Virus record (IMG/VR): IMGVR_UViG_3300031759_000159
Span: 1-22,036 of that record
Length of the DNA: 22,036 bases
From: a virus
Strand: one strand, 5' to 3'
Shown one piece after another: positions 5,505 to 18,436 of this stretch. Within the stretch, counting starts at the first letter, position 1; each line of letters starts with the position of its first letter. Under the pieces are notes generated by a model that saw only the letters and a program-made list of their open reading frames with translations, did not search any database and was not told the DNA's origin. The position numbers and the translations under genes are program-made.

Positions 5505-5531
5505 ATGCCATTCCGAACCAACCCTGAAACC

Positions 5532-5536
5532 GAGGA
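5532..5536 (+). promoter_or_regulatory. Ribosome binding site deciding the endolysin start
   Basis: GAGGA lies 7 bases upstream of ATG 5544. The alternative in-frame ATG at 5505 has no comparable site, so the shorter product is favoured. Confidence 0.6.
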
Positions 5537-5543
5537 CACAACG

Positions 5544-6122
5544 ATGACCGCCGCTAATTTCCAGTCCTGGTATGATTTCTGCGAACAGCCGGACAATGAC
5601 GGCCAGAAGTTCCACATCACCGAAGGCGATCCCGGTGGCGCCACGGTTTACGGCTGGACAGAGGCAATGTGGGTGCGCGTCGCGCCGCTGCATGGCATCA
5701 CCGACGTGTCGCTGGCCGGGTTCAAGGCGCAGACGAAAGACACGTTGATGCCGCTTTCACGGGCGCAATACTGGAACGGCATTCAGGCGGACCAGATGCC
5801 GAACGGAATCGATGTGTTCTGGACGGATTTCCAATTCGGCTCAGGCGGCGCCACCAAGGCGCTGCAAAAGGCGATTGGCTTGCAGGCGGACGGCATCGTT
5901 GGGATGCAAACGCTGGGCACCCTGCGAATAGAGCCTGACAAGACGCGCCTGCTGGACACACTGCTGGTTGCTCGGCTGGCCTATTACGACGCCTGCGGTT
6001 TCCGCACCCGGTGGCCCGGCCTGTATCGCCGAGCGAGGGTTGGACATGATTTGGCGCAAACGATCGCTGCGGCATCCGCCCCGAAGCCGGCGCTGGTGAC
6101 TGTGCCGAAAGGGCTGACGTGA
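5544..6122 (+). CDS. Endolysin, GH108-like muramidase with C-terminal peptidoglycan-binding domain
   Basis: The product (192 residues) should cleave the glycan strands of peptidoglycan at lysis. The N-terminal half carries GDPGGATVYGWT at residues 28-39, the family hallmark (usually DPGGATNxG-[IV]-T). The catalytic glutamate normally precedes it in an EGGY-like motif; here the corresponding stretch is CEQPDNDGQKFH, so E14 is the best candidate and E27 the alternative. Residues about 93-125 (FWTDFQFGSGGATKALQKAI, then DGIVG) match the predicted peptidoglycan-binding domain found in this family. No signal peptide is visible, so it would need a holin, and none is seen nearby. The stop overlaps a 33-codon ORF (ATGA). 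In Mu the lysis gene lies before the terminase genes, so this placement differs. Confidence 0.85.
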   Translation: MTAANFQSWYDFCEQPDNDGQKFHITEGDPGGATVYGWTEAMWVRVAPLHGITDVSLAGFKAQTKDTLMPLSRAQYWNGIQADQMPNGIDVFWTDFQFGSGGATKALQKAIGLQADGIVGMQTLGTLRIEPDKTRLLDTLLVARLAYYDACGFRTRWPGLYRRARVGHDLAQTIAAASAPKPALVTVPKGLT

Positions 6123-6223
6123 TGATCGAAAATTTCACACTCGAAGACCGCGTTGAAAGCAACGCCGATATCGCCGATCTGATCGAGAAGATATTCCAGC
6201 GGCCATGGGATGCACCGAGATGA
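6122..6223 (+). CDS. Tiny ORF, 33 aa, unknown
   Basis: ATG 6122 overlaps the endolysin stop (ATGA), and its own TGA overlaps the likely methyltransferase start at 6220 (ATGA). The acidic peptide begins MIENFTLEDRVESNADIADL and ends near IFQRPWDAPR. It has no membrane segment. The double coupling fits a real translated gene, or a stretch whose translation serves to reinitiate on the methyltransferase. No family is recognised. Confidence 0.5.
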   Translation: MIENFTLEDRVESNADIADLIEKIFQRPWDAPR

Positions 6224-6936
6224 CCGCGGGCGCCGGCCATGGCACCGTTATGAGGCCCGCTCATCCAGGCGAGCCGGTGCCGAGTCCAGTCCCGCTGCTG
6301 GACCCTGCGCCAGGGGTTGATATGGGGAAGGCCAAAGGCAATCCCCGTGGCAGTGGCTTCGCCCGCAATGCGAACGACTGGTATGTGGAGCCTCCCTGGG
6401 CCGTCCGCGCACTGTTCGACGCCGAACCGTTCTCAGGTGTGGTGTGGGACCCGGCCTGCGGCCGCGGAACGATTCCGCGCGTCGCGAAGGAATACGGACT
6501 GGCATCGTTAGGCACGGACCTGGTCGAACGTGGGTTTGGCGGCGGCGGGACCGATTTCCTGCGTCATTCGCCCGCAACGGACAATATCGTCTCCAATCCG
6601 CCCTATCGGATCATCGGTGGCTTCACCGCCCGGGCGTTGACCTTGGCCAAGCGCAAGGTGGCGATCTTCGCCCGGCTGGCTCTGCTGGAAGGACGGAAGC
6701 GCGGCGCCTGGTTTCCGACCACGCCATTCTCCCGCGTGCTGGTGTTCAGTGCCCGGGTGAACTGCCCTCCCGGCGAGTCCGCGCCCGCGTTCGACGCGCC
6801 GATCGAGGATTGGGGCCTCGGCGGCGCCATCCCCTACGCCTGGTTCATCTGGGACCATGCGCACACGGGAGACGCCCGCGTCGGATTCCTGCCGCCACCG
6901 GGCCGCCAGACCAACTGCATGCGGCTCGCGGCCTGA
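6220..6936 (+). CDS. Phage DNA methyltransferase, probably N6-adenine type
   Basis: This is a class I SAM-dependent methyltransferase of about 238 residues. The SAM-binding motif DPACGRGT is at residues 77-84, an acidic residue at the next strand (GTD, D100) should contact SAM, and the catalytic NPPY is at 126-129. SAM motif before NPPY is the order seen in amino-methyltransferases acting on adenine (or N4-cytosine). A separate target-recognition domain is not obvious, so sequence specificity may be relaxed. The start is uncertain: ATG 6220 is coupled to the previous ORF, ATG 6205 is 15 bases longer, and ATG 6322 has AGGGG just upstream and begins MGKAKGNPRGSGF. The likely role is modifying phage DNA against host restriction, comparable in purpose to Mu mom. 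Confidence 0.85.
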   Translation: MTAGAGHGTVMRPAHPGEPVPSPVPLLDPAPGVDMGKAKGNPRGSGFARNANDWYVEPPWAVRALFDAEPFSGVVWDPACGRGTIPRVAKEYGLASLGTDLVERGFGGGGTDFLRHSPATDNIVSNPPYRIIGGFTARALTLAKRKVAIFARLALLEGRKRGAWFPTTPFSRVLVFSARVNCPPGESAPAFDAPIEDWGLGGAIPYAWFIWDHAHTGDARVGFLPPPGRQTNCMRLAA

Positions 6937-7139
6937 TGGCACACCGGAAAGTCAATATCTGCATCAGCGTCTAGGACGCCGGGTGCCTCACTGTCGTGTT
7001 ACAGCGAGAGATCGACCATGTGGAGAAGGTGTTGCGGATCAACGGTGAAATGATGACCGGGGAAGAGAGGAATTACACGAAGCTCTATCGGTCACAATTG
7101 GCCGGGTGCCTCGCTGCTGTTTGGAAGGTCGTGAGTTGA
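6936..7139 (+). pseudogene. Small ORF interrupted by an in-frame amber codon
   Basis: ATG 6936 overlaps the methyltransferase stop (TGATG), the coupling style of this operon. It opens 12 codons (MAHRKVNICISV) and meets TAG at 6972-6974. The same frame then stays open for 54 codons to TGA 7137-7139, with protein-like content: LQREIDHVEKVLRINGEM, then YTKLYRSQLAGCLAAVW. An internal start at GTG 6996 would give 47 residues but lacks a ribosome binding site. The ORF may be a decayed gene, a short gene starting at 6996, or one needing amber readthrough. No family is recognised. Confidence 0.4.
6978..7116 (+). repeat. Imperfect direct repeat pair, 16 bp, 123 bp apart
   Basis: GCCGGGTGCCTCACTG at 6978-6993 recurs at 7101-7116 with one mismatch (G for A at position 13). 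The offset is a multiple of three, so both copies read in the same frame as AGCLT and AGCLA. It may mark an old internal duplication in the small ORF. Confidence 0.6.
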
Positions 7140-7192
7140 CTGGTGGATGATCGGGCCGCGTATCTCGCAGTGGCGTGATCCCTCAGAAGTTT

Positions 7193-7219
7193 TAAGACGA
7201 TCCTAAGACGCCGTAAGAG
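7193..7219 (+). repeat. Three phased TAAGA(C/G) direct repeats
   Basis: TAAGACG at 7193-7199, TAAGACG at 7204-7210 and TAAGAG at 7214-7219 are spaced 11 and 10 bases apart, about one helical turn, so they lie on one face of the DNA. This is the layout of an activator or repressor binding array. Confidence 0.5.
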
Positions 7220-7276
7220 TATCCAGGGCGGCGCCCGCCCGCCCGGACCATCCATCGGACCCGAAAACGTCCAGCC

Positions 7277-7306
7277 CGGCCTCAGGCCGCCCCTTTACGG
7301 GGGCCG
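7277..7306 (+). other. Two mutually exclusive GC-rich hairpins
   Basis: CGGCC (7277-7281) can pair with GGCCG at 7285-7289 across a 3-base loop, or with GGCCG at 7302-7306 enclosing CCCC-TTTAC-GGGG (7290-7302). No T-run follows, so it is not a typical terminator. An attenuator or mRNA 5' stabiliser is possible. Confidence 0.35.
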
Positions 7307-7367
7307 AACGTCAATCTGATTCCCATCTGATCCGCCGCCTAATCTGGCCTCCTATCCCGGAGGCTTC

Positions 7368-8873
7368 ATGGCGTTCATGCCGATCACCCGTGTCGATACC
7401 GCGAACCGCATGGTCTGGGCACGTCTCGACGAGACGCCCGGCCTATCCGGCCATGTCATGGACTATGACGCGTCCAAGCCGTTCTTCACCACATGGTCGG
7501 AGCGGATGGCGAAAGCCTCCGGTGGCGCGAACCTCGGCAATGTCCGGGCGATGCACTCCCGCAAGGCGGCCGGCATGGTCAAGTCGTTCGATTGTGACGA
7601 CGCAGCCAAAACCATGCTGTTCGGCATTTACATCTCGGATGATGCCGAGCTCGAAAACTGTGCTTCCGGCCTCTACACCGGCATCAGCCCCGGCGGCAAA
7701 ATGCGTAAATTTGTCGCCGGCAGTCAGATCCGTTTCGAGGCTCGGCCGGACGAACTCAGCCTGGTCGATGCGCCGGACAATCCGAACGCCACCTTCATGA
7801 CGATGAACAAGGCGAGCGGGATGGAGGAAGCGGTTCCCTTCGCCCCGATCGCCGACCTGGAAGCGATCGTCGAGGCGATGGCGAAATGCGCTTCCCCCGG
7901 CCACCTGGCCGGCCTGGTCCTCTCGCTGCCCACCACGACCATCGTCCGTATGTTCGGCAACGATGCCGAGCGGGCGCCGGAAGAGGTGATGGAGAAACGG
8001 GCGTTCTCCGCCGCCGATCGGCGAGATGCGACAAAGAACGGCGTAGCCCTGCCGGACGGCAGTTTCGCGATCGTGAATAAAGATGACCTGGCGGCGGCGA
8101 TCACCGCGATCGACCGCGCCAGCGACGGCCCGGCCACGCGTGCGCATATCATCGCCCGGGCCGAGGCACTGGATGCCGTCGCCACGCTATCGGACGGCTG
8201 GCGCGGCGCGATCGTGCCGATGAAGAAAAGCATGGATGAGGTCGGCGCCTTCGCCCGCATCCTTCAGGACGTAAGCTGGCTGGCGTCCAACGTAACCTCC
8301 GAGGCTGCGTCCGAGGGTGATGGCTCAACCGTGCCCGCGCAGATCGCGGCATGGCTGCGGGCCGGCATTCCGATCCTGACCGCCATGGCCGGCGAGGAAA
8401 GCAACGAATTGCTGCAACGGGTCATGGCGGGCGTGGCGGCATTGCCGGTGCTGGCGGTGGCACAGGATGCCGCCGAGGGTGCGGTTGACGACACCATGGT
8501 GGTCCTGGCCGATGGCGTCGATGTCATGGCCAAAGCGGCCGGCATTGGCCGTGTCGTCTCGATGGCCAGTGAGCTGGCGCAGCTTCGCGCCGCCCGCACC
8601 GAGGACATGGCGAAATTCGCCGGCGACCGCGCCAGCTTTGAAACCACGCGCGCCACACTTCAGGCCCGCGTCACCCAACTGGAAGCCCTGCCGCGTGCCG
8701 GCGGCGCCTCGGTTCGCGCGGTCTCCAAGGAAAGCGACGGCGTCGAGCCACCGAAAACAGATCAGGCCCGTGCGGCGGTGGACGCCATGCCGGCCGGTAT
8801 CGACCGGGCGCGCGTCGAGATGTCGCTGGCGCTCGGCGTTCCCCAGGCCCTTCTCAGAAACAGGACGATTTAG
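7368..8873 (+). CDS. Prohead protease/scaffold fusion, XkdF-like with DUF6582-like middle
   Basis: The product has 501 residues. Residues about 1-145 are an XkdF-like serine protease: AMHS with H63, then GLYTGISPGG with S107, and RPDELSLVDAPDNPNATF, the usual end of this domain. H63 and S107 are the candidate catalytic pair. Residues about 205-285 (NGVALPDGSFAIVNKDDL, then RAHIIARAEAL) match a DUF6582-like segment often attached to phage proteases and scaffolds. The rest is helical, with an Ala-rich region and a coiled coil near 400-440, fitting a scaffold that guides capsid assembly and is later digested. GGAGG at 7359-7363 gives a strong start. The stop is TAG 8871, directly abutting the capsid ATG in the same frame. 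It occupies the Mu gene I position. Confidence 0.85.
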   Translation: MAFMPITRVDTANRMVWARLDETPGLSGHVMDYDASKPFFTTWSERMAKASGGANLGNVRAMHSRKAAGMVKSFDCDDAAKTMLFGIYISDDAELENCASGLYTGISPGGKMRKFVAGSQIRFEARPDELSLVDAPDNPNATFMTMNKASGMEEAVPFAPIADLEAIVEAMAKCASPGHLAGLVLSLPTTTIVRMFGNDAERAPEEVMEKRAFSAADRRDATKNGVALPDGSFAIVNKDDLAAAITAIDRASDGPATRAHIIARAEALDAVATLSDGWRGAIVPMKKSMDEVGAFARILQDVSWLASNVTSEAASEGDGSTVPAQIAAWLRAGIPILTAMAGEESNELLQRVMAGVAALPVLAVAQDAAEGAVDDTMVVLADGVDVMAKAAGIGRVVSMASELAQLRAARTEDMAKFAGDRASFETTRATLQARVTQLEALPRAGGASVRAVSKESDGVEPPKTDQARAAVDAMPAGIDRARVEMSLALGVPQALLRNRTI

Positions 8874-10388
8874 ATGACTCTCGCACAGCAGGTTACCGCC
8901 GATACGATCGCTCTCGTGCATGCCGCCATCAGTGGTGGCGGGCTGGAAGAGATGATCAAGGCCGCGGGGTTTACCCAGCCGGCCGCCGGTTTCGGTGGGC
9001 TGCAGAACTTCTCCCTGGAGAAGGTTGCGGCCAACCTGTTCCCGGTCATCACGCCGTTTCGTAACCGCATTCCGCGCCGCATACACGAAGAGGGCGGCAC
9101 CCAGGCCAATTGGAAGGCATTCACCGCGATTAACTCGATGGGCATCGAGGCGGGCGTGGCGGACGGCAATCGTGGCGGCGCCACCAGCACATCCAGTGCG
9201 GATTACTGGGCGGCCTTCCGCCAGATGGGACTTGAAGACTTTGTGACGTTCGGCGCCCAATTATCGGCCAAGGGGTTCCTCGATCTGCGGTCGCGGTCAA
9301 ACACTAACCTGCTCTGGGCGTTGATGATCGCTGAAGAGTTAACCGATATTGGCGGCAACACATCCATGCCGCTCGGACAGGGCAATCAGCCGTCCGCGGC
9401 TGATGTCGGCACCGGCGGCGCTTTGGCGGCGAACACCACCTATTCGGTGATTGTCGCGCCTCTGACTCTCGCCGGCTTCATGACGGGTAACGTCGTGAGC
9501 GGCGTCCGCGGCCTGGTCACCCGGACCAACGCAGACCAGTCGGTTGACACTTACGGCGGGGGCACCGGCAAGCCATCGGCTAATCGCACGGTGGCGACGG
9601 CTAGTGACGGCAATGCGACACATGCGCTCAACGTGCTCACCGCCCCGACGGCCGGTGCCGCCGGTTACGCGTGGTTCTGGGGACCAGTCGGCGCTGAGGT
9701 ATTGGGCGCGATCACGACGATCAACAGTCTGGTCATCACGTCTGCCGCGGGCGGCACGCAAACCGCCGCCAGCCTGGGCGCCAACGACAACAGCACGAAT
9801 GGCCTGGTCTATGACGGCATTCTGACCCAGGTGGCCAAAACCGGTTCCGGGTATTGGGCAACGATGCCGACCGGCGCGGCTGGCATGGGGACGCCGCTGA
9901 CGGCTGATGGAGAGGGTGGCGTGGTCGAAATCGACGCCGCGCTGCAATGGTTCTGGGATACCCGCCGGATGTCGCCCACACGCATTTGGTGCAACTCGCA
10001 GGAACGCCGGAACATTACCAAAAAAGTGCTGATGGGGTCCGCAACGGGTTCACAGCGGTTCACCATCAACAGCGACCAGGGCAACCTGACCGGTGGTGAT
10101 CTGGTACGGACGTATCTGAATAAGTTCGCGATGGGTGCGGCGCAATCGCTGCCGATCGAACTGCATCCCGATGTGCCGCCCGGCACGCTGATGTTTGATA
10201 CCGACCGGTTGCCGTATCCGATCCCCGGTCAGGACGAATTACTCGTGAAGCTGCTGCGGCAGGATTACAACGCGACCGACTGGGCGCTGAAAAGCCGTAA
10301 ATTCGAGTCCGGCGTGTACTTCGACGGCGTGCTTCAGAACTACGCGCCGTTCGCCTTCGGCGCGATCTCCAACATCGGCAACGGCTGA
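8874..10388 (+). CDS. Major capsid protein, HK97-type fold with inserted Ig-like domain
   Basis: This 504-residue protein follows the protease/scaffold gene and precedes a terminator, as major capsid genes do. Residues about 1-170 look like the N-arm and first part of an HK97-type capsid (LEKVAANLFPVITPFRNRIP, then EDFVTFGAQLSAKGFLDL). Residues about 300-504 complete the fold (QWFWDTRRMSPTRIWCNSQE and LPIELHPDVPPGTLMFDTD, then KLLRQDY). Between them, residues about 173-292 are Gly/Thr/Ala-rich beta sequence (TTYSVIVAPLTLAGF, then AGYAWFWGP), an Ig- or fibronectin-like insertion that probably decorates the capsid surface. AGGA at 8862-8865 lies 8 bases before the ATG, inside the protease gene. 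The family is inferred from pattern and position; the insertion fold is inferred. Confidence 0.85.
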   Translation: MTLAQQVTADTIALVHAAISGGGLEEMIKAAGFTQPAAGFGGLQNFSLEKVAANLFPVITPFRNRIPRRIHEEGGTQANWKAFTAINSMGIEAGVADGNRGGATSTSSADYWAAFRQMGLEDFVTFGAQLSAKGFLDLRSRSNTNLLWALMIAEELTDIGGNTSMPLGQGNQPSAADVGTGGALAANTTYSVIVAPLTLAGFMTGNVVSGVRGLVTRTNADQSVDTYGGGTGKPSANRTVATASDGNATHALNVLTAPTAGAAGYAWFWGPVGAEVLGAITTINSLVITSAAGGTQTAASLGANDNSTNGLVYDGILTQVAKTGSGYWATMPTGAAGMGTPLTADGEGGVVEIDAALQWFWDTRRMSPTRIWCNSQERRNITKKVLMGSATGSQRFTINSDQGNLTGGDLVRTYLNKFAMGAAQSLPIELHPDVPPGTLMFDTDRLPYPIPGQDELLVKLLRQDYNATDWALKSRKFESGVYFDGVLQNYAPFAFGAISNIGNG

Positions 10389-10459: not shown

Positions 10460-10744
10460 ATGAAGCTCTACGCGAACGGCCAGTCCGTGCTCCACGTCGG
10501 CGACAAGGACTATAAAGCCGACAAAGACGGCGCCTTCACGGTCGATCACGCGCATGTCGATCAGGCCCTGTCGCTGGGTGCCACGCGGCACAAGCCGGGC
10601 ACCGAAGCGCCGCCGGCACCGGCCGTTGGCGACACCCTCGCGCAGAAGGTCGCCACGCTGGAAAACACGCTGGCCGGACTGGCGCCTCGGCTCGCCGCGC
10701 TGGAAGGCCAGATCAAAGACCTCCAGGGCCGTGTTAAGAAGTAG
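10460..10744 (+). CDS. Small post-capsid protein with C-terminal coiled coil, unknown
   Basis: The product has 94 residues, with TGAGGA at 10447-10452 before ATG 10460. Residues 1-45 form a small beta/alpha domain (MKLYANGQSVLHVGDKDYKA, then FTVDHAHVDQALSLGA). A Pro/Ala-rich linker follows, and residues about 60-94 are a regular coiled coil (LAQKVATLENTLAGLAPRLA, then LEGQIKDLQGRV). Small proteins of this shape often follow the major capsid gene in alphaproteobacterial phages. Head decoration or head-fibre function is possible but not shown. The stop TAG is followed 3 bases later by the in-frame GTG of the connector gene. Confidence 0.75.
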   Translation: MKLYANGQSVLHVGDKDYKADKDGAFTVDHAHVDQALSLGATRHKPGTEAPPAPAVGDTLAQKVATLENTLAGLAPRLAALEGQIKDLQGRVKK

Positions 10745-11757: not shown

Positions 11758-12179
11758 TGCGCGAGGAACGCTACGCCGCGCTATTTGCGCTGCTGGAGAC
11801 GATGAAGGGCGACGCCGGCTTCAAGACCTGTAGTCGCAAGATGCGCCTGCTGACTGAAGTAACTGCTCCGGAAATGCCGGCGCTGTTCATGAGCGTGACC
11901 CGCCAGCCAATCAAACAGAAGGTCAATTTTCCGGCGCGGCGTTCGCTGGGCGCCATGGTCTTTTTGTATGTGTCCAACCCCAATCCCGCCACCCCGGCCA
12001 GTACCAGATTGAACAATTTGCTCGATCTCCTGGATGCCACATTGGGGACGGAGGACAATCTGCAAACCCTTGGCGGTTTGGTCGAGCATGCATGGATCGA
12101 AGGAACGATCGAGATCTGGGAAGGCCCAAAAGGAGAGCGGGCCGCCGCCGTGATCCCGATCATGATGCTGCTGCCGTAG
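11757..12179 (+). CDS. Tail terminator-like protein
   Basis: The product has 140 residues. The start MREERYAALFALLE, then FKTCSRKMRLLTEV, PALFMSVTRQPIKQ, and a C-terminal strand pair (WIEGTIEIWEGPKGERAAAV then IPIMM) follow the pattern of siphophage tail terminators and minor tail U-like proteins. These cap the tail tube and attach it to the head. Gene order (after gp10-like, before tail tube) supports this. It ends in TAG 12177-12179; the next gene's ATG lies 15 bases further on in the same frame. Confidence 0.72.
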   Translation: MREERYAALFALLETMKGDAGFKTCSRKMRLLTEVTAPEMPALFMSVTRQPIKQKVNFPARRSLGAMVFLYVSNPNPATPASTRLNNLLDLLDATLGTEDNLQTLGGLVEHAWIEGTIEIWEGPKGERAAAVIPIMMLLP

Positions 12180-12443: not shown

Positions 12444-13186
12444 TGCAGGTTGGTTTCGGCGTTGGCCGCATGTTCGGCATCCCACAGGGGTTGCCCGCTG
12501 GAACGGCGACGCCCGTCCAGCTTGGCGCACTGGAGAAGGTCCAAATTGAATTTTCCGGTGACCTGAAGGAATTGGGGGGATCGCAGTCGTTCTCGCTCGA
12601 TTTGGCGCGCGGCAAGTTCAAGATCACGGGGAAGGCCAGCTTCGCCAAGATTAACGCGGCGACCTGGAACAGCCTGTATTTCGGGCAGGCCGTGACCACC
12701 GGTCAGACCTTGATTTCCCTGGATGAGCTTGGGACTGTTCCTGCTGCCGCGCCCTACACGATCACGGTCGCGAACGGGGCGACGTTCGCGCAGGATCTGG
12801 GCGTCGTTTACCAGAATGGAAACGGCCTTATTTCCCAGGTGCCCCCAGCCCCGGGACCAGCCGCGGCGCAATATTCGCAGGGCGCGGGCGGCGTTTATAC
12901 CTTCGCCGCGGCTGATGCCGGTGCGCCGGTCAAGTTCTGCTATGAATACACCGGCACCGGTGGCTACACGATGGCCCTGATCAACCAGGATCAAGGCTCG
13001 GTGCCGACCTGGAAGGCCGCGTTCACCACTAAATTTCGGGGGAAATCACGCACTCTGGTGCTGAACAAGTGCGGATCGGCGAAACTGTCGTTCGCTACCA
13101 AGGATGACTGGACAGTTCCTGAAATGGACTTCACCGCCGTTGCCGACGATAGCGGCAATATCGGCTACCTCTCGTTCGCGGAGTAA
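12443..13186 (+). CDS. Major tail tube protein
   Basis: The product has 247 residues starting MQVGFGVGRMFGIPQG. VQLGALEKVQIEFSGDLKEL, then SFSLDLARGKFKITGKASFA is the typical first half of siphophage tube proteins. The central stretch, residues about 92-175 (YTITVANGATFAQDLGVVYQ, then FKFxYEY-like), is a beta-rich insertion common in alphaproteobacterial phage tubes. The C-terminal half (WKAAFTTKFRGKSRTLVLNK, then EMDFTAVADDSGNIGYLS) closes the tube fold. Hexamers of this protein should stack to form the tail. Position just before the assembly chaperone and tape measure genes is standard. Confidence 0.8.
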   Translation: MQVGFGVGRMFGIPQGLPAGTATPVQLGALEKVQIEFSGDLKELGGSQSFSLDLARGKFKITGKASFAKINAATWNSLYFGQAVTTGQTLISLDELGTVPAAAPYTITVANGATFAQDLGVVYQNGNGLISQVPPAPGPAAAQYSQGAGGVYTFAAADAGAPVKFCYEYTGTGGYTMALINQDQGSVPTWKAAFTTKFRGKSRTLVLNKCGSAKLSFATKDDWTVPEMDFTAVADDSGNIGYLSFAE

Positions 13187-13190
13187 GCCG

Positions 13191-13538
13191 ATGGACGAGG
13201 AAACCACGGCGAAGATCACGATCGGCGGCACGACGACTACGCTGTCCCCCATGATGTTCGATCAACTGAAACTGATTCTGCCGTTCGTCCTGATCAGTTC
13301 CGGCGGGCATAACCGGATTGAAATCACCGATGCGGCGCTGAGCATTTGCGCAATCATGATATCGGACGTTGACCACCGGACGGCTGAAGACATTCAGGCG
13401 CAGGCGCTACTCCTCGGCCAGAAACTCTTCGCCACGGAAATCGACGGCCTGTTGCGGTCCATCACGAAGCTGCTGACGGTGTCCGGGTTGGTCGCTGCCG
13501 GAGATCCAGCGCCGGGGGAACCCGTAGCGATCGGCTGA
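13191..13538 (+). CDS. Tail assembly chaperone, zero-frame product (G-like)
   Basis: The start is ATG 13191 with GGAG at 13180-13183; an in-frame start at 13104 would overlap the tail tube gene and is rejected. The 115-residue product opens MDEETTAKITIGGTTTTLSP, then a helical region (FDQLKLILPFVLI and LLRSITKLLTVSGLVAAG). Size and position between tail tube and tape measure fit the lambda G-type chaperone that coats the tape measure before tube assembly. The zero frame ends only five codons after a putative slippery site. Sequence similarity to G itself is too weak to judge by eye, so the call rests mainly on order and on the frameshift signal. Confidence 0.75.
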   Translation: MDEETTAKITIGGTTTTLSPMMFDQLKLILPFVLISSGGHNRIEITDAALSICAIMISDVDHRTAEDIQAQALLLGQKLFATEIDGLLRSITKLLTVSGLVAAGDPAPGEPVAIG

Positions 13539-13804
13539 CCACCGATCGCATCAACGATCTGATCTCGGAATTGGTCGCCAACGGCTGTGGGTCCTGGCGT
13601 GAGGTGTCCCATTACATGGGGCTGAGGGAGTATTTCGCGATGCATCGCCGTTGGTCTGATCATCCGCCCGTTCCCCTGATGGTCGCGGCCTATCTGGGCA
13701 TCAAGCCGCAGGTCAAATTCGCCGATAACGACGAAGCCATGGAAGCCCTGCTGGCCATGTTCGGCGTGTCCGGCGGCGGCACGGCCGTGATCGGTTCGTT
13801 ATGA
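13191..13804 (+). CDS. Tail assembly chaperone, predicted -1 frameshift product (GT-like)
   Basis: A -1 shift at GGGGGAA (13514-13520) joins 13191-13520 to the frame starting at base 13520 and running to TGA 13802-13804, giving about 204 residues. The -1 frame is open from well before the slip site. The extension begins TRSDRLTTD and contains GCGSWREVSHYMGLREYFAM and PPVPLMVAAYLGIKPQ, credible protein rather than random sequence. Alternatively the second part is a separate gene from TTG 13571 (77 residues), but it has no convincing start signal. In lambda and many siphophages the GT extension links the chaperone to the tail tube protein. The stop overlaps the tape measure ATG (ATGA). Confidence 0.7.
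13514..13549 (+). promoter_or_regulatory. Putative -1 programmed ribosomal frameshift element
   Basis: GGGGGAA (13514-13520, read G GGG GAA in the zero frame) is followed by a 6-base spacer. A perfect 8-bp stem then pairs GCGATCGG (13527-13534) with CCGATCGC (13542-13549) around a 7-base loop holding the zero-frame TGA. The P-site Gly tRNA re-pairs perfectly after -1 slippage; the A-site Glu tRNA would need a G-U pair, so the heptamer is not fully canonical. Confidence 0.65.
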
Positions 13805-16740
13805 GCGGCACGTCTTCCGATACCGAAGTCAACGTCTCGATCAGCGGCGTCGCCACTGAATTCGAGCAAAGCTGCAAGGCGGCAGCGTCCGCGATGCAGG
13901 GATTGAAGTCGTCGATCGACGGCTTCACCACTTCCATGGCATCGGCGCAAACCGGTCTGGACAAGGCCACGCCGGCCATGGACGCGATGCGCACAGCCAG
14001 CGCAGCATCCACGCAGGCGTTGACCGGCACCGGCACCGCCGCGACGGCCGCCAGCCGGTCCATGCAGGATCTGATCAACCAGACGACCGGGGTATCCCGG
14101 TCGATGGGCAGTGCCGGCGACAGCGCCGACGTGTTCCGCAGGGCGCTGGGCGATAGCAGCAACGAGGTTAAGCAGCTTCGGTCGTTTTTCGAGGAAGGCA
14201 ACGAAGGCGCCGGCCACTTCGCGCATGGCACAGCAGGCGTTACGCGTGAACTGATCGTCATGGCGCATGAGGCGGTGCAGGGTAATTTCTCCCGCATTCC
14301 AGGCAGCCTGATGGTGCTGGGCGAACGCATGGGCGGCATCACGCTGGCGACGATGGGTTGGGCTGCGGCCGTCGCCGTGGCGGTCTACACGGTCTATGAA
14401 CTGGTTGCGGGCTGGCAGCACGTCGAAGAAGCCGTGCGGGGCGCACAGGCCGCGCAGATCACGGTGGGAACCTGGTCGGAACAAAGCGAAGGTCAGATCC
14501 GCAAGTCTATTCAGTCGATGATGGAGCGGTGGGGTATCACCAAGGCGGAGGCCGCCGATACCACGCAACTTTACGCCGGAATGGGCGGAGCCGCGGCGCA
14601 ATACAGCGAGCGGATCGCGGATGCGGGACACGCCCTCGCGCAGTTGAAGGGCGGCGACCAGGTTGAAGCCGCCAATGAAATCTCCAAGGCGTTTAATGGC
14701 GGCGCACAGGCCGCGCTAAGCTGGGCCAAGGCGAACCATTTCGTCGAGGGCAGCACGGTTACGTTAATCCAGGCGATGATTGACGCGAACCAAACCGGTA
14801 AGGCGATGTCCACCATATTGGACGCCCTGAACGAGCGGTTTGGAGAAGCCGGCAGGGCTGCCGCAAAAATGGGCCAGGAAGCCAAAGAGGCCATGCAAAT
14901 GGTCATGGCCCTGGGTCCGGACGCACCCGCTGGCATGATCCCGGATGCGCCCGGCAAGCAAGAGCAGCAGAAAAAAGCCGGAGAGGCAGGCGGCAAGGCG
15001 CAGTCGCAAGACGAGGTCGATCAGACCGCCATTATTGAGAAGAATACCGCGGCACTGCGCGATAAAGCCGCAATGCAGGATGAATTGGACCGCCTCCAGG
15101 CATCCGAATTGCCTGTGACGGCGGCCAGCCTGGAGGCGATAGCCCAGCTTCAACACAAGCTGGCCACCGCCCACACGCAGATCCAGATGGATGAACACGA
15201 AGCCACGATGGCTGGCTATCAGGCCGAACTGATCGTGGCGAAGGACAATGCCGCCCAACTGCTGGTTATCAAGCAGAAGATGTTCCTCGAAACCGCGAAA
15301 TACGAGGGCGCCAACGCCGCTGCCGTGCGGGCGTCGGCTAACCAGGTGCTATCCGCCCAGCAGGCCGCGAGCGATCAGCAGTTGCGCATGCGGATGGCGC
15401 AGATCGGCAACGAGGAAGCCGCGTCGCGCGGATCGAAGGCCGACCTGCTGGCTATCTCAGACGAAAAACTGGCGGTGCTGCGCGAATACGGCAAACAGGG
15501 CACGATCGAGTACCAGACCGAACTGAACCGCCGCACGGCGCTGGAGAAGCAGGCCGGCGACGAGACCATCCAACTGCGCCTGAGCAAGCTGCGCGGCGAT
15601 ATGGAAGCCGCGCGCGGCAACCTGACGGCGCAGATGGCGATCCAGGACCAGATCGTGGAGATGGTGAAGGAACACTACGGTGCGGAAACCACCCAACTCC
15701 AAACGGAACTGAACAAGCAGGGCCAGCTTCGGGCAGAAGCCAAACAGCAGGCCGCATCGCTCGCGGTGCAGCAGCTTGAAGAAAAACGCCGCACGCTTGA
15801 AGAAGAGATGCGGGCGGAGATGCAGCACGTCGAGGCATCCCGCCAGGACGGCGAGATCACGATCGCCCAGGCGCGGACGCAGCAGCTTCAACTGATCCAG
15901 GACTACCGCTCGGCCGCCGCGCAGATCCTGGCGATCGAGGCGCAGAAATCCGCAGGCATCCGGGCAATGGCCGAACAGGTCGCCAGGCGCCAGCAGGAAC
16001 TCGCCCAGCAGTCCGCCACCGCCATCATGCGGGCCAACGACCGGGCGGCCGAGGAAACCCATCGCGCCTGGGCCACGACGAACCGGGAGATCGCCGATAG
16101 CTTCGCCAGCGAGGCGACCTCGGTATTATCCGGCCAAAAGGCCATGGTGCAGGTGCTTCAGGGCCTGGGTCAGCACATGGTGCAGAGCGCGATTGGCTGG
16201 GCCGGCCGCAAGGCGCTGGCGTGGGCTGAGGGGGAGATTGCCCAGACCGCCGCCACGGACGCCCAGGCCGCCCTGCGGGCCGGTGCGGACGGCGCGTCGA
16301 TGGCACCGACGCTGGCGATGCTGCTGACGAAGTGGCTGGGCTTAGAGACCGCTAAGACGGCCGGAAGCGCCGCCGGAGACGCCCTGAGAACCGGCGCCGA
16401 TACAACGGCTGCATCGGCGTCGGCCACGACGGCCAGTACCGCCGCGCTGTTCCAGATTAAGGCCGCGGCGGCTGTGGCGGCGGCGAACACCTACGCGGCG
16501 ATCTCGGCCATCCCCTATATCGGACCCGAGATGGCGCCTGAAGCGGCAGCCGGCGCGGATGCGGCCGTGATGGCGTTTGCCGCCCCTGTCGCGTTGGCGG
16601 TCGGTGCCTGGAACCTGCCCGGTGACGCGATGTATCAACTGCACAAGGGTGAAACCGTGGTGCCGCAGACCTTCGCGGACGGCATGCGTAACGCGATCGG
16701 CGGTGGTGGCGGCAGCGGTGGTGGCGACACGCACAACTAG
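13801..16740 (+). CDS. Tape measure protein, ends at an amber codon
   Basis: The product has 979 residues, the longest helical protein here. It should set tail length inside the tube and exit with the DNA. The N-terminal third is Ser/Ala/Thr-rich helix. A hydrophobic segment lies at about 178-206 (ATMGWAAAVAVAVYTVYELV), typical of tape measures. Residues about 410-770 are Gln/Ala/Glu-rich coiled coil. The C-terminus has Ala-rich helices and AWNLPGDAMYQLHKGETVVP, which normally lies just before the protein end in this family. A Gly-rich stretch then leads to TAG at 16738-16740. The frame continues in convincing protein sequence to 16860, so this end looks premature. At roughly 1.5 angstrom per residue (known rule) the tail would be near 150 nm. 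Confidence 0.9.
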   Translation: MSGTSSDTEVNVSISGVATEFEQSCKAAASAMQGLKSSIDGFTTSMASAQTGLDKATPAMDAMRTASAASTQALTGTGTAATAASRSMQDLINQTTGVSRSMGSAGDSADVFRRALGDSSNEVKQLRSFFEEGNEGAGHFAHGTAGVTRELIVMAHEAVQGNFSRIPGSLMVLGERMGGITLATMGWAAAVAVAVYTVYELVAGWQHVEEAVRGAQAAQITVGTWSEQSEGQIRKSIQSMMERWGITKAEAADTTQLYAGMGGAAAQYSERIADAGHALAQLKGGDQVEAANEISKAFNGGAQAALSWAKANHFVEGSTVTLIQAMIDANQTGKAMSTILDALNERFGEAGRAAAKMGQEAKEAMQMVMALGPDAPAGMIPDAPGKQEQQKKAGEAGGKAQSQDEVDQTAIIEKNTAALRDKAAMQDELDRLQASELPVTAASLEAIAQLQHKLATAHTQIQMDEHEATMAGYQAELIVAKDNAAQLLVIKQKMFLETAKYEGANAAAVRASANQVLSAQQAASDQQLRMRMAQIGNEEAASRGSKADLLAISDEKLAVLREYGKQGTIEYQTELNRRTALEKQAGDETIQLRLSKLRGDMEAARGNLTAQMAIQDQIVEMVKEHYGAETTQLQTELNKQGQLRAEAKQQAASLAVQQLEEKRRTLEEEMRAEMQHVEASRQDGEITIAQARTQQLQLIQDYRSAAAQILAIEAQKSAGIRAMAEQVARRQQELAQQSATAIMRANDRAAEETHRAWATTNREIADSFASEATSVLSGQKAMVQVLQGLGQHMVQSAIGWAGRKALAWAEGEIAQTAATDAQAALRAGADGASMAPTLAMLLTKWLGLETAKTAGSAAGDALRTGADTTAASASATTASTAALFQIKAAAAVAAANTYAAISAIPYIGPEMAPEAAAGADAAVMAFAAPVALAVGAWNLPGDAMYQLHKGETVVPQTFADGMRNAIGGGGGSGGGDTHN

Positions 16741-16860
16741 CATATCAGCGCGATCGATGCGTCCGGCATTGCGGCCCTGTTCCGCGCCAATGGTCCGATC
16801 ATCGCGCGGATTGTCGGTGCCCAGCAAAGCCGCAATCCATCCATGCGACCGGCCTTCTGA
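16741..16860 (+). other. Amber-separated C-terminal extension of the tape measure frame
   Basis: After TAG 16738-16740 the tape measure frame stays open for 39 codons: HISAIDASGIAALFRANG, then IIARIVGAQ and a final SMRPAF. This resembles the usual ending of such tape measures (an ISAIDA-like strand, then a short helix). It has no start codon of its own except a late ATG at 16852. Its TGA (16858-16860) overlaps the next gene's ATG by one base, exactly the operon's normal junction. It is therefore the lost or conditionally translated C-terminus. Confidence 0.7.
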
Positions 16861-17450
16861 TGACGATCCCGTTCTTTCCGGTGTTGCCGGGGCGTGGCTG
16901 GCCGATCACCCGGGCGCCGCTGTGGAAAACACTGAAGCAGGAATCGGCATCCGGCAAAGAGACCACGATACCGGCATGGACATTCCCGAAATACCAATGG
17001 AGCGTCCCGTTCACCACTTTGCGGGCGGCAGCTTCTTACAATGAATTCCAGACGCTATTGGGTTTCATCAATACCCTGAATGGCGGAGCGCTGCCGTTTT
17101 ACTACACTGATTCCATCGATAACGCGGTGACCGCGCAGGTCTTTGGTCTGGGTGATGGCACGACGGCCGCCTTCCAGCTTGTGCGGGCCATGGGCGGCTA
17201 TGCGGAACTGATCCAGTCGCCTGCAGGCGTCCCTGTGATATCTGTCGCAGGCGTCGCGACAGCCGCCTTCACGGTTAGCAATGTCGGCGTGATTACCTTC
17301 ACCGCACCGCCCGCCGCGGGCGCCCTGCTGACCTGGTCGGGGTCGTTCAACTGGCTGTGCCGGCTGGATGAGGACACGGCGGAATTCTCGATGTCGATGC
17401 CGAAGCTGCTGGAGCTGGGGAAGCTCTCTTTCACCTCAAAAAAGCTGTAG
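16860..17450 (+). CDS. Distal tail protein, DUF2460 family (GTA g12-like)
   Basis: This 196-residue protein follows the DUF2460/TIGR02217 pattern: FPVLPGRGWPITRAPLWKT at the start, a central FNTL-type strand region (YNEFQTLLGFINTLNGGALP, then FYYTDS), GLGDGTTAAFQLVRAMGG, ITFTAPPAAGALLTWSG, and the ending RLDEDTAEFSM. Proteins of this family form the distal tail ring between tube and hub in the Rhodobacter capsulatus GTA and related siphophages. The start overlaps the TGA that closes the readthrough frame of the tape measure. It ends in TAG, 5 bases before the next ATG; readthrough here would stop after two codons. Confidence 0.88.
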   Translation: MTIPFFPVLPGRGWPITRAPLWKTLKQESASGKETTIPAWTFPKYQWSVPFTTLRAAASYNEFQTLLGFINTLNGGALPFYYTDSIDNAVTAQVFGLGDGTTAAFQLVRAMGGYAELIQSPAGVPVISVAGVATAAFTVSNVGVITFTAPPAAGALLTWSGSFNWLCRLDEDTAEFSMSMPKLLELGKLSFTSKKL

Positions 17451-17455
17451 CGCCC

Positions 17456-18436
17456 ATGAAATCACCGATCTGGGAAGCATCCCCGGGCGCCCTGATGGCG
17501 CTGCTGTTTTCCGCCGGGCCAACCGAGCGGATCTTCGCTTATTACGACCTTTACACGATCACCTGCGTGCAAGGGCCGGTGCTGCGCTACACGACGTGCG
17601 ACCGGACGATCGGCTACGGCGGCACAGTGTGGGCGGCCGATGGCGTGCGGATTGAACCGGCCGGTCAGAAGAATGCGCTGTTTCATGCCAAGGTGGGCCT
17701 CGACGTCGATACCTGGCAGGCGGTGTTTTACCCGCGTCCCGTCGATGATCTGACCGGCGCGGCCTATCCTGATCTGATCGGATCGGTGCCCTGGCTCGCC
17801 GCGGCGGCGGCCGGCGCGCTGAGTGGCGCGACCGCCAAGGTGGACCGGGCCTATTTTGCGCTGCCGATGACAGTAACGGTCAATTCAGGGGGCAATACAT
17901 ACACGTTGCCTATGCCGGTTCCGCTTCAGCCGGTGGGTGTGCTGCGCCTCTTCGCCGGCCGGGTGGCTGAGGTGGACCTTGGACGCTCGGGCGCCTGCAT
18001 CACGATCAACAGCCACCTGGAACTGCTGAACGTCCAGATGCCCGGGAACCTGTTTCAGGCCGGGTGCAAGAATAAATTGTTCGACGCCGGCTGTACCCTT
18101 TCAGCGGCCACCTATGCGGTCACCACCGCAGCCGTTGCCGGATCAACGCGTTATAAATTGCAATCCGCTGTCGCTGCGCCGGCCGGGTCCGGGACTTACA
18201 CGCTGGGCCGGATTGCCATGACATCGGGTCTGAACACGGGCTTCACCCGGTCGGTTCGATCCTGGGACGGCCTGAATTTCACCCTGGTCAATCCGCTGCC
18301 GTTCACGGTCGCGGCCGGCGATACATTCACCGCCTGGCCGGGGTGCGACAGGCAGCTTGCGACGTGTGACCTGTTCGGCAACCGCGCGAATATCAAGGCC
18401 GAAATGTTCATCCCCGCGCCGGAAACCGCCGCATGA
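17456..18436 (+). CDS. Tail hub protein, DUF2163 family (GTA g13-like)
   Basis: The product has 326 residues. YYDLYTITCVQGPVLRYTTC and GYGGTVWAADGVRIEPAGQK open the hub fold in the way usual for DUF2163/TIGR02218 proteins. The C-terminal domain carries four cysteines in the family positions: C204 (AGCKNKLFDAGC, with C213) and C297 (PGCDRQLATC, with C304), followed by FGNRANIKAEMFIP. Phage lambda gpL, the functional counterpart, binds an iron-sulphur cluster through cysteines in its C-terminal domain, so a cluster here is a reasonable inference. The hub joins the distal tail ring to the tip. It ends in an ATGA overlap with the peptidase gene. Confidence 0.86.
   Translation: MKSPIWEASPGALMALLFSAGPTERIFAYYDLYTITCVQGPVLRYTTCDRTIGYGGTVWAADGVRIEPAGQKNALFHAKVGLDVDTWQAVFYPRPVDDLTGAAYPDLIGSVPWLAAAAAGALSGATAKVDRAYFALPMTVTVNSGGNTYTLPMPVPLQPVGVLRLFAGRVAEVDLGRSGACITINSHLELLNVQMPGNLFQAGCKNKLFDAGCTLSAATYAVTTAAVAGSTRYKLQSAVAAPAGSGTYTLGRIAMTSGLNTGFTRSVRSWDGLNFTLVNPLPFTVAAGDTFTAWPGCDRQLATCDLFGNRANIKAEMFIPAPETAA

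Follow-up and report, generated by a model that had tools for sequence, protein, structure and literature searches.

A probable recent nonsense mutation near the end of the tape measure gene in one lineage of Mu-type phage

Why should a phage tape measure gene contain an amber codon so close to what looks like its natural end? The question is raised by a soil virus record from IMG/VR, a fragment of 22,036 bases with no host genome attached, here called the window. Its tape measure gene, assigned from its open reading frame, its position before a DUF2460 gene and the homology of its C-terminus to other tape measure genes, occupies positions 13801-16740 on the plus strand. The full protein has no match in Pfam or PHROG. 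Counted from the ATG at 13801, 979 codons lie upstream of an in-frame TAG at 16738-16740 on the same strand. Beyond it the frame continues for 39 sense codons (16741-16857, HISAIDASGIAALFRANGPIIARIVGAQQSRNPSMRPAF) and closes with a TGA at 16858-16860 that overlaps, by one base (TGATG), the ATG at 16860 of the distal-tail-like (Dit-like) DUF2460 gene (16860-17450, plus strand; Pfam PF09343, E 3.9e-33). A preliminary description of this DNA had noticed the overlap, which is present as described, and had argued from the near absence of gaps in the operon that the TAG cuts off a natural C-terminus. Without the extension there would indeed be a gap, but this argument is weaker than it was made out to be. 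In several intact relatives, 67-102 nt separate the DUF2460 gene from the end of the tape measure frame, so that a gap alone does not prove that a tail end is missing.

The surroundings give an idea of the kind of phage involved. The stretch 1-1110 covers a gene for a Mu Gp27-type packaging protein (PF11985), preceded by two small genes that match PHROG families; this protein indicates a transposable phage, the type to which JBD30 also belongs. The window thus joins a transposable-phage head module to a siphophage tail resembling that of gene transfer agents (GTA). Among the head genes is an endolysin-like gene with Glycosyl hydrolase 108 and peptidoglycan-binding character (5505-6122), and in the interval between it and the next head gene (6123-7367) the longest open reading frame (6205-6936) is without a Pfam match. 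Two overlapping frames (13191-13538 and, in frame -1, 13388-13804) that lie after the tail tube gene and before that of the tape measure resemble a tail assembly chaperone pair of the gpG/GT type; the run CCGGGGGAACCC near 13512-13523 is a possible -1 slip site for this pair.

The homology of the extension was examined through DUF2460, which directly follows the tape measure gene in this family. We collected 80 viral and 80 genomic loci, extracted the C-termini encoded upstream and built a profile from them that did not include the window. Positions 2-74 of its 75 matched the read-through frame of the window, with 68 bits in a three-frame scan and 77 bits for the isolated end; scored separately, the part before the TAG reached 43 bits and the extension alone 25.6 bits. 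The latter value exceeds chance: the best of 1000 shuffled extensions scored 7.5 bits and the other two frames scored below 0. A typical relative has DVHFHVNAMDAGGVAKFFQTHGRALAATIRNQSRNFNP and an Asaia MAG has DVHLHVSALDAGSVTALFRSQGADLARIVAHQMSNNPSLRPRY, compared with DTHN(TAG)HISAIDASGIAALFRANGPIIARIVGAQQSRNPSMRPAF in the window. Judged by this match, the extension (16741-16860 with its TGA, plus strand) is the native C-terminus of the tape measure protein, comprising a strand and a C-terminal helix, and the last 40 or so residues of this family appear to form a conserved strand-plus-helix end. Since its score falls in the middle of the range of intact relatives left out of the profile, the extension seems not to have decayed, which would mean either that the mutation is recent or that some translation of the extension persists. 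Other searches added little: a profile search of the PDB gave no significant match, a phage collection gave none by nucleotide search or by tblastn with the full tape measure protein, and single-protein scans of viral contigs with the latter returned the same lineage plus one short match only. An AlphaFold2 model of the read-through C-terminus reached a pLDDT of 39, and no structural claim made here rests on it.

We found that the relatives run on through the position of the TAG. Matches to the profile were obtained at 126 other loci. Where a stop was flagged within one of them, it proved to be the natural end, which the match overran by a few residues, and none lay at or near the TAG position; a few of the 160 loci did not match the profile and are uninformative either way. 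Searching 342 further genomes, drawn from two host groups, yielded 28 matches, a few of them loci already counted, all open through the TAG site, and the nearest relatives in that search were 47-51% identical over the last 139 residues. Among the C-termini of about 150 relatives there was no further internal stop, and on this comparison the stop is private to the lineage of the window. Homologues ending at GGGDTHN were looked for among the relatives, and none was found. The alignment that the preliminary description had called for places a sense codon where the window has TAG, usually for I, V, L, Y, F or W and rarely for A, M or T, a strand-like hydrophobic pattern directly preceding the C-terminal helix. 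Its suggestion that the codon arose from one for tyrosine is plausible, as two relatives with the same local flank and spacing have Tyr there (HNYHI and NNYHI); it is not proven, given the range of residues in the relatives overall, and Leu or Trp, whose codons likewise lie one base from TAG, are possible precursors.

We consider it probable that the TAG is a recent, still undecayed nonsense substitution fixed in one lineage of phage or prophage, of Mu type with a siphophage/GTA-like tail. Homologous sequence runs in frame past the stop, and homologues, the closest of them about 50% identical, have a sense codon in its place, as expected of a nonsense allele. Recent inactivation of the gene, in a lineage that is resident or conditionally defective, is most likely and also the simplest account, because the stop is private and neither a readthrough signal nor a suppressor was found; it would be unusual but ordinary biology. 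A transposable phage could plausibly persist as a resident provirus on which selection is relaxed. Some observations run counter to this reading: the lineage is common enough to have been assembled in several metagenomes, and its other recognisable genes are all intact, as would also be the case in a functional phage relying on readthrough, and readthrough predicts an undecayed extension equally well. If the nonsense reading is right, an essential tail gene can be damaged in a virus whose contigs come from several metagenomes, and contigs that look intact are not all functional.

Under the nonsense reading, the TAG would have replaced a hydrophobic or aromatic residue in a strand just before the C-terminal helix. 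Translation would end 40 codons early, with loss of the strand and helix that in siphophages studied so far anchor the protein in the baseplate or initiator complex. In phage TP901-1, the C-terminus of the tape measure protein was assigned to the initiator complex, and removal of its last 30 residues left heads only, with no plaques and no lysogeny (PMC5099701). In the JBD30 tape measure protein, the 33 C-terminal residues make up a coiled coil within the core of the baseplate and bind the upper baseplate protein gp50 (PMC11445458); in RcGTA, the end of the protein consists of strands and a helix of 20 residues (PMC7296036). By inference from such systems, the missing 40 residues would be a baseplate anchor rather than part of the ruler length, and, since TP901-1 makes heads only without its last 30, the TAG should abolish tails unless it is suppressed. 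Termination 120 nt upstream would probably also weaken translation of the DUF2460 gene. The start of this gene has almost no Shine-Dalgarno complement (anti-SD duplex of -1.7 kcal/mol, at the 75th percentile, the weak end, of random positions, whose median is -2.9), so that its coupling to the natural stop would be lost through the TAG. The region 16840-16862 itself, with little Shine-Dalgarno sequence and a TGATG junction, suggests translational coupling to the tape measure gene. Unless suppressed, then, the lineage would produce heads without functional tails and amount to a defective or conditionally defective provirus.

The alternative that survives best, though we think it rather unlikely, is that the TAG is read through at a low or moderate level, by near-cognate decoding or with the help of a host suppressor. 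A few full-length copies per cell would suffice, and the truncated form would be a by-product or a dominant regulator. The undecayed extension and the open state of all other recognisable genes agree with this idea, but recent mutation accounts for the former equally well. Few copies are needed per tail, tape measure trimers having been reported in RcGTA (PMC7296036) and JBD30 (PMC11445458), and bacterial genes with in-frame stops and dN/dS below 1 exist (PMC7918605). However, the stop is conserved in 0 of about 150 relatives, contrary to what programmed readthrough predicts; no recognised signal is present, and no tRNA gene was found in the window, itself a fragment, or in three sister contigs of the same lineage. 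Nor was a tRNA with a CUA anticodon established among 299 genomes from the family presumed to include the host, searched with a restricted pattern that had no positive control; of six matches to the pattern, ARAGORN recognised ordinary Gln or Leu tRNA genes at four and none at two. The host had been guessed to be Acetobacteraceae-like solely from the nearest relatives. Regulated readthrough giving two tape measure lengths, an option raised in the preliminary description, is thus not supported, and two lengths are also unlikely because a stop at the TAG would remove the anchor and not ruler length (PMC5099701, PMC11445458). A literature search on tape measure readthrough returned nothing relevant.

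One could envision a more elaborate version, in which the TAG is kept as a switch. The amount of full-length tape measure protein and, via coupling, that of the Dit-like protein would be set by rare readthrough, making tail initiation limiting and dependent on the translation state of the host. We regard this as very improbable. Readthrough, if genuine, would control tail assembly in an unusual way; nothing here points to such control.

An artefact must also be considered. Three other IMG/VR contigs (3300032605_001656, 3300032675_001233 and 3300032676_000880), each from a different metagenome ID, match the window at 100%, 99.99% and 100% over 6.6, 7.2 and 6.3 kb, and all three carry the same TAG, followed by an identical extension (0 variation). 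A one-off sequencing or assembly error, one of the options first put forward, is therefore unlikely. The metagenome IDs of these contigs are numerically close; samples or processing may be common to them, and their independence is not proven. That all the assemblies have an error or a chimera in common is nevertheless very unlikely, the TAG being present in four records, one of which differs from the window elsewhere by a SNP (G to T at 13050, which turns Arg into Leu in what is presumably the tail tube gene), so that the four are not copies of one consensus.

It is even harder to believe that the tape measure protein works without its last 40 residues. What speaks for it is a parallel, in that the gpH protein of lambda undergoes cleavage close to the C-terminus as the phage assembles. 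The strand and helix are kept in the relatives, and TP901-1 does not tolerate the loss of 30 residues (PMC5099701).

TAG is a normal stop elsewhere in the window. It terminates four other genes (at 8871-8873, 10742-10744, 12177-12179 and 17448-17450), including the DUF2460 gene, which ends at the normal C-terminus of its family, and a gene at the TAG-ATG junction 8871-8876. The latter lies within 7368-8876, where a 501-aa gene ends in TAG and the ATG of the phrog_13692 gene comes directly next in the same frame. No other gene contains an in-frame TAG, the remaining plus-strand TAG triplets either falling in another frame or lying beyond the listed genes, and none was found in the tail-fibre gene past the right end of the window, as read from a sister contig. 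A single internal TAG in an otherwise intact gene might suggest that TAG stands for an amino acid in the phage or its host, but with TAG ending four genes and internal to no other, and with no tRNA found in the window or the sister contigs, we give this idea almost no credence, recoded phages being expected to have many in-frame TAGs and to avoid TAG as a terminator.

Stop-recoded phages such as phAss-1 likewise have an in-frame TAG in a structural gene, but phAss-1 has in-frame TAGs in 41 ORFs (PMC10607447); such phages carry TAG in dozens of genes, whereas here one is internal and the codon otherwise serves as an ordinary stop. In-frame stops in bacteria, which are often short-lived, provide a precedent for nonsense mutation and readthrough alike (PMC7918605). 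They resemble the present case in that a single TAG interrupts a reading frame that is otherwise conserved, and differ from it in having been chosen for stops that two or more species share; ours is in one lineage. In TP901-1, both C-terminal loss and an amber mutation in a siphophage tape measure were studied experimentally, but these were laboratory-made changes in an unrelated lactococcal phage (PMC5099701), whereas the stop described here is natural and known from sequence alone. JBD30 is of the same broad type as the phage in the window, combining transposable-phage head genes with a siphophage tail; the window has a Mu-type head-module gene, as expected of such a phage. The C-terminus of the JBD30 tape measure protein (gp46; PMC11445458) has no internal stop and no detectable match to our profile; the parallel is therefore functional and not one of sequence membership. 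Two genes past the tape measure gene, the window encodes a homologue of gp50 (17456-18436, plus strand), an upper baseplate or hub-attachment protein with the same two Pfam domains (PF09931 and PF09356; BLASTP E 6e-7).
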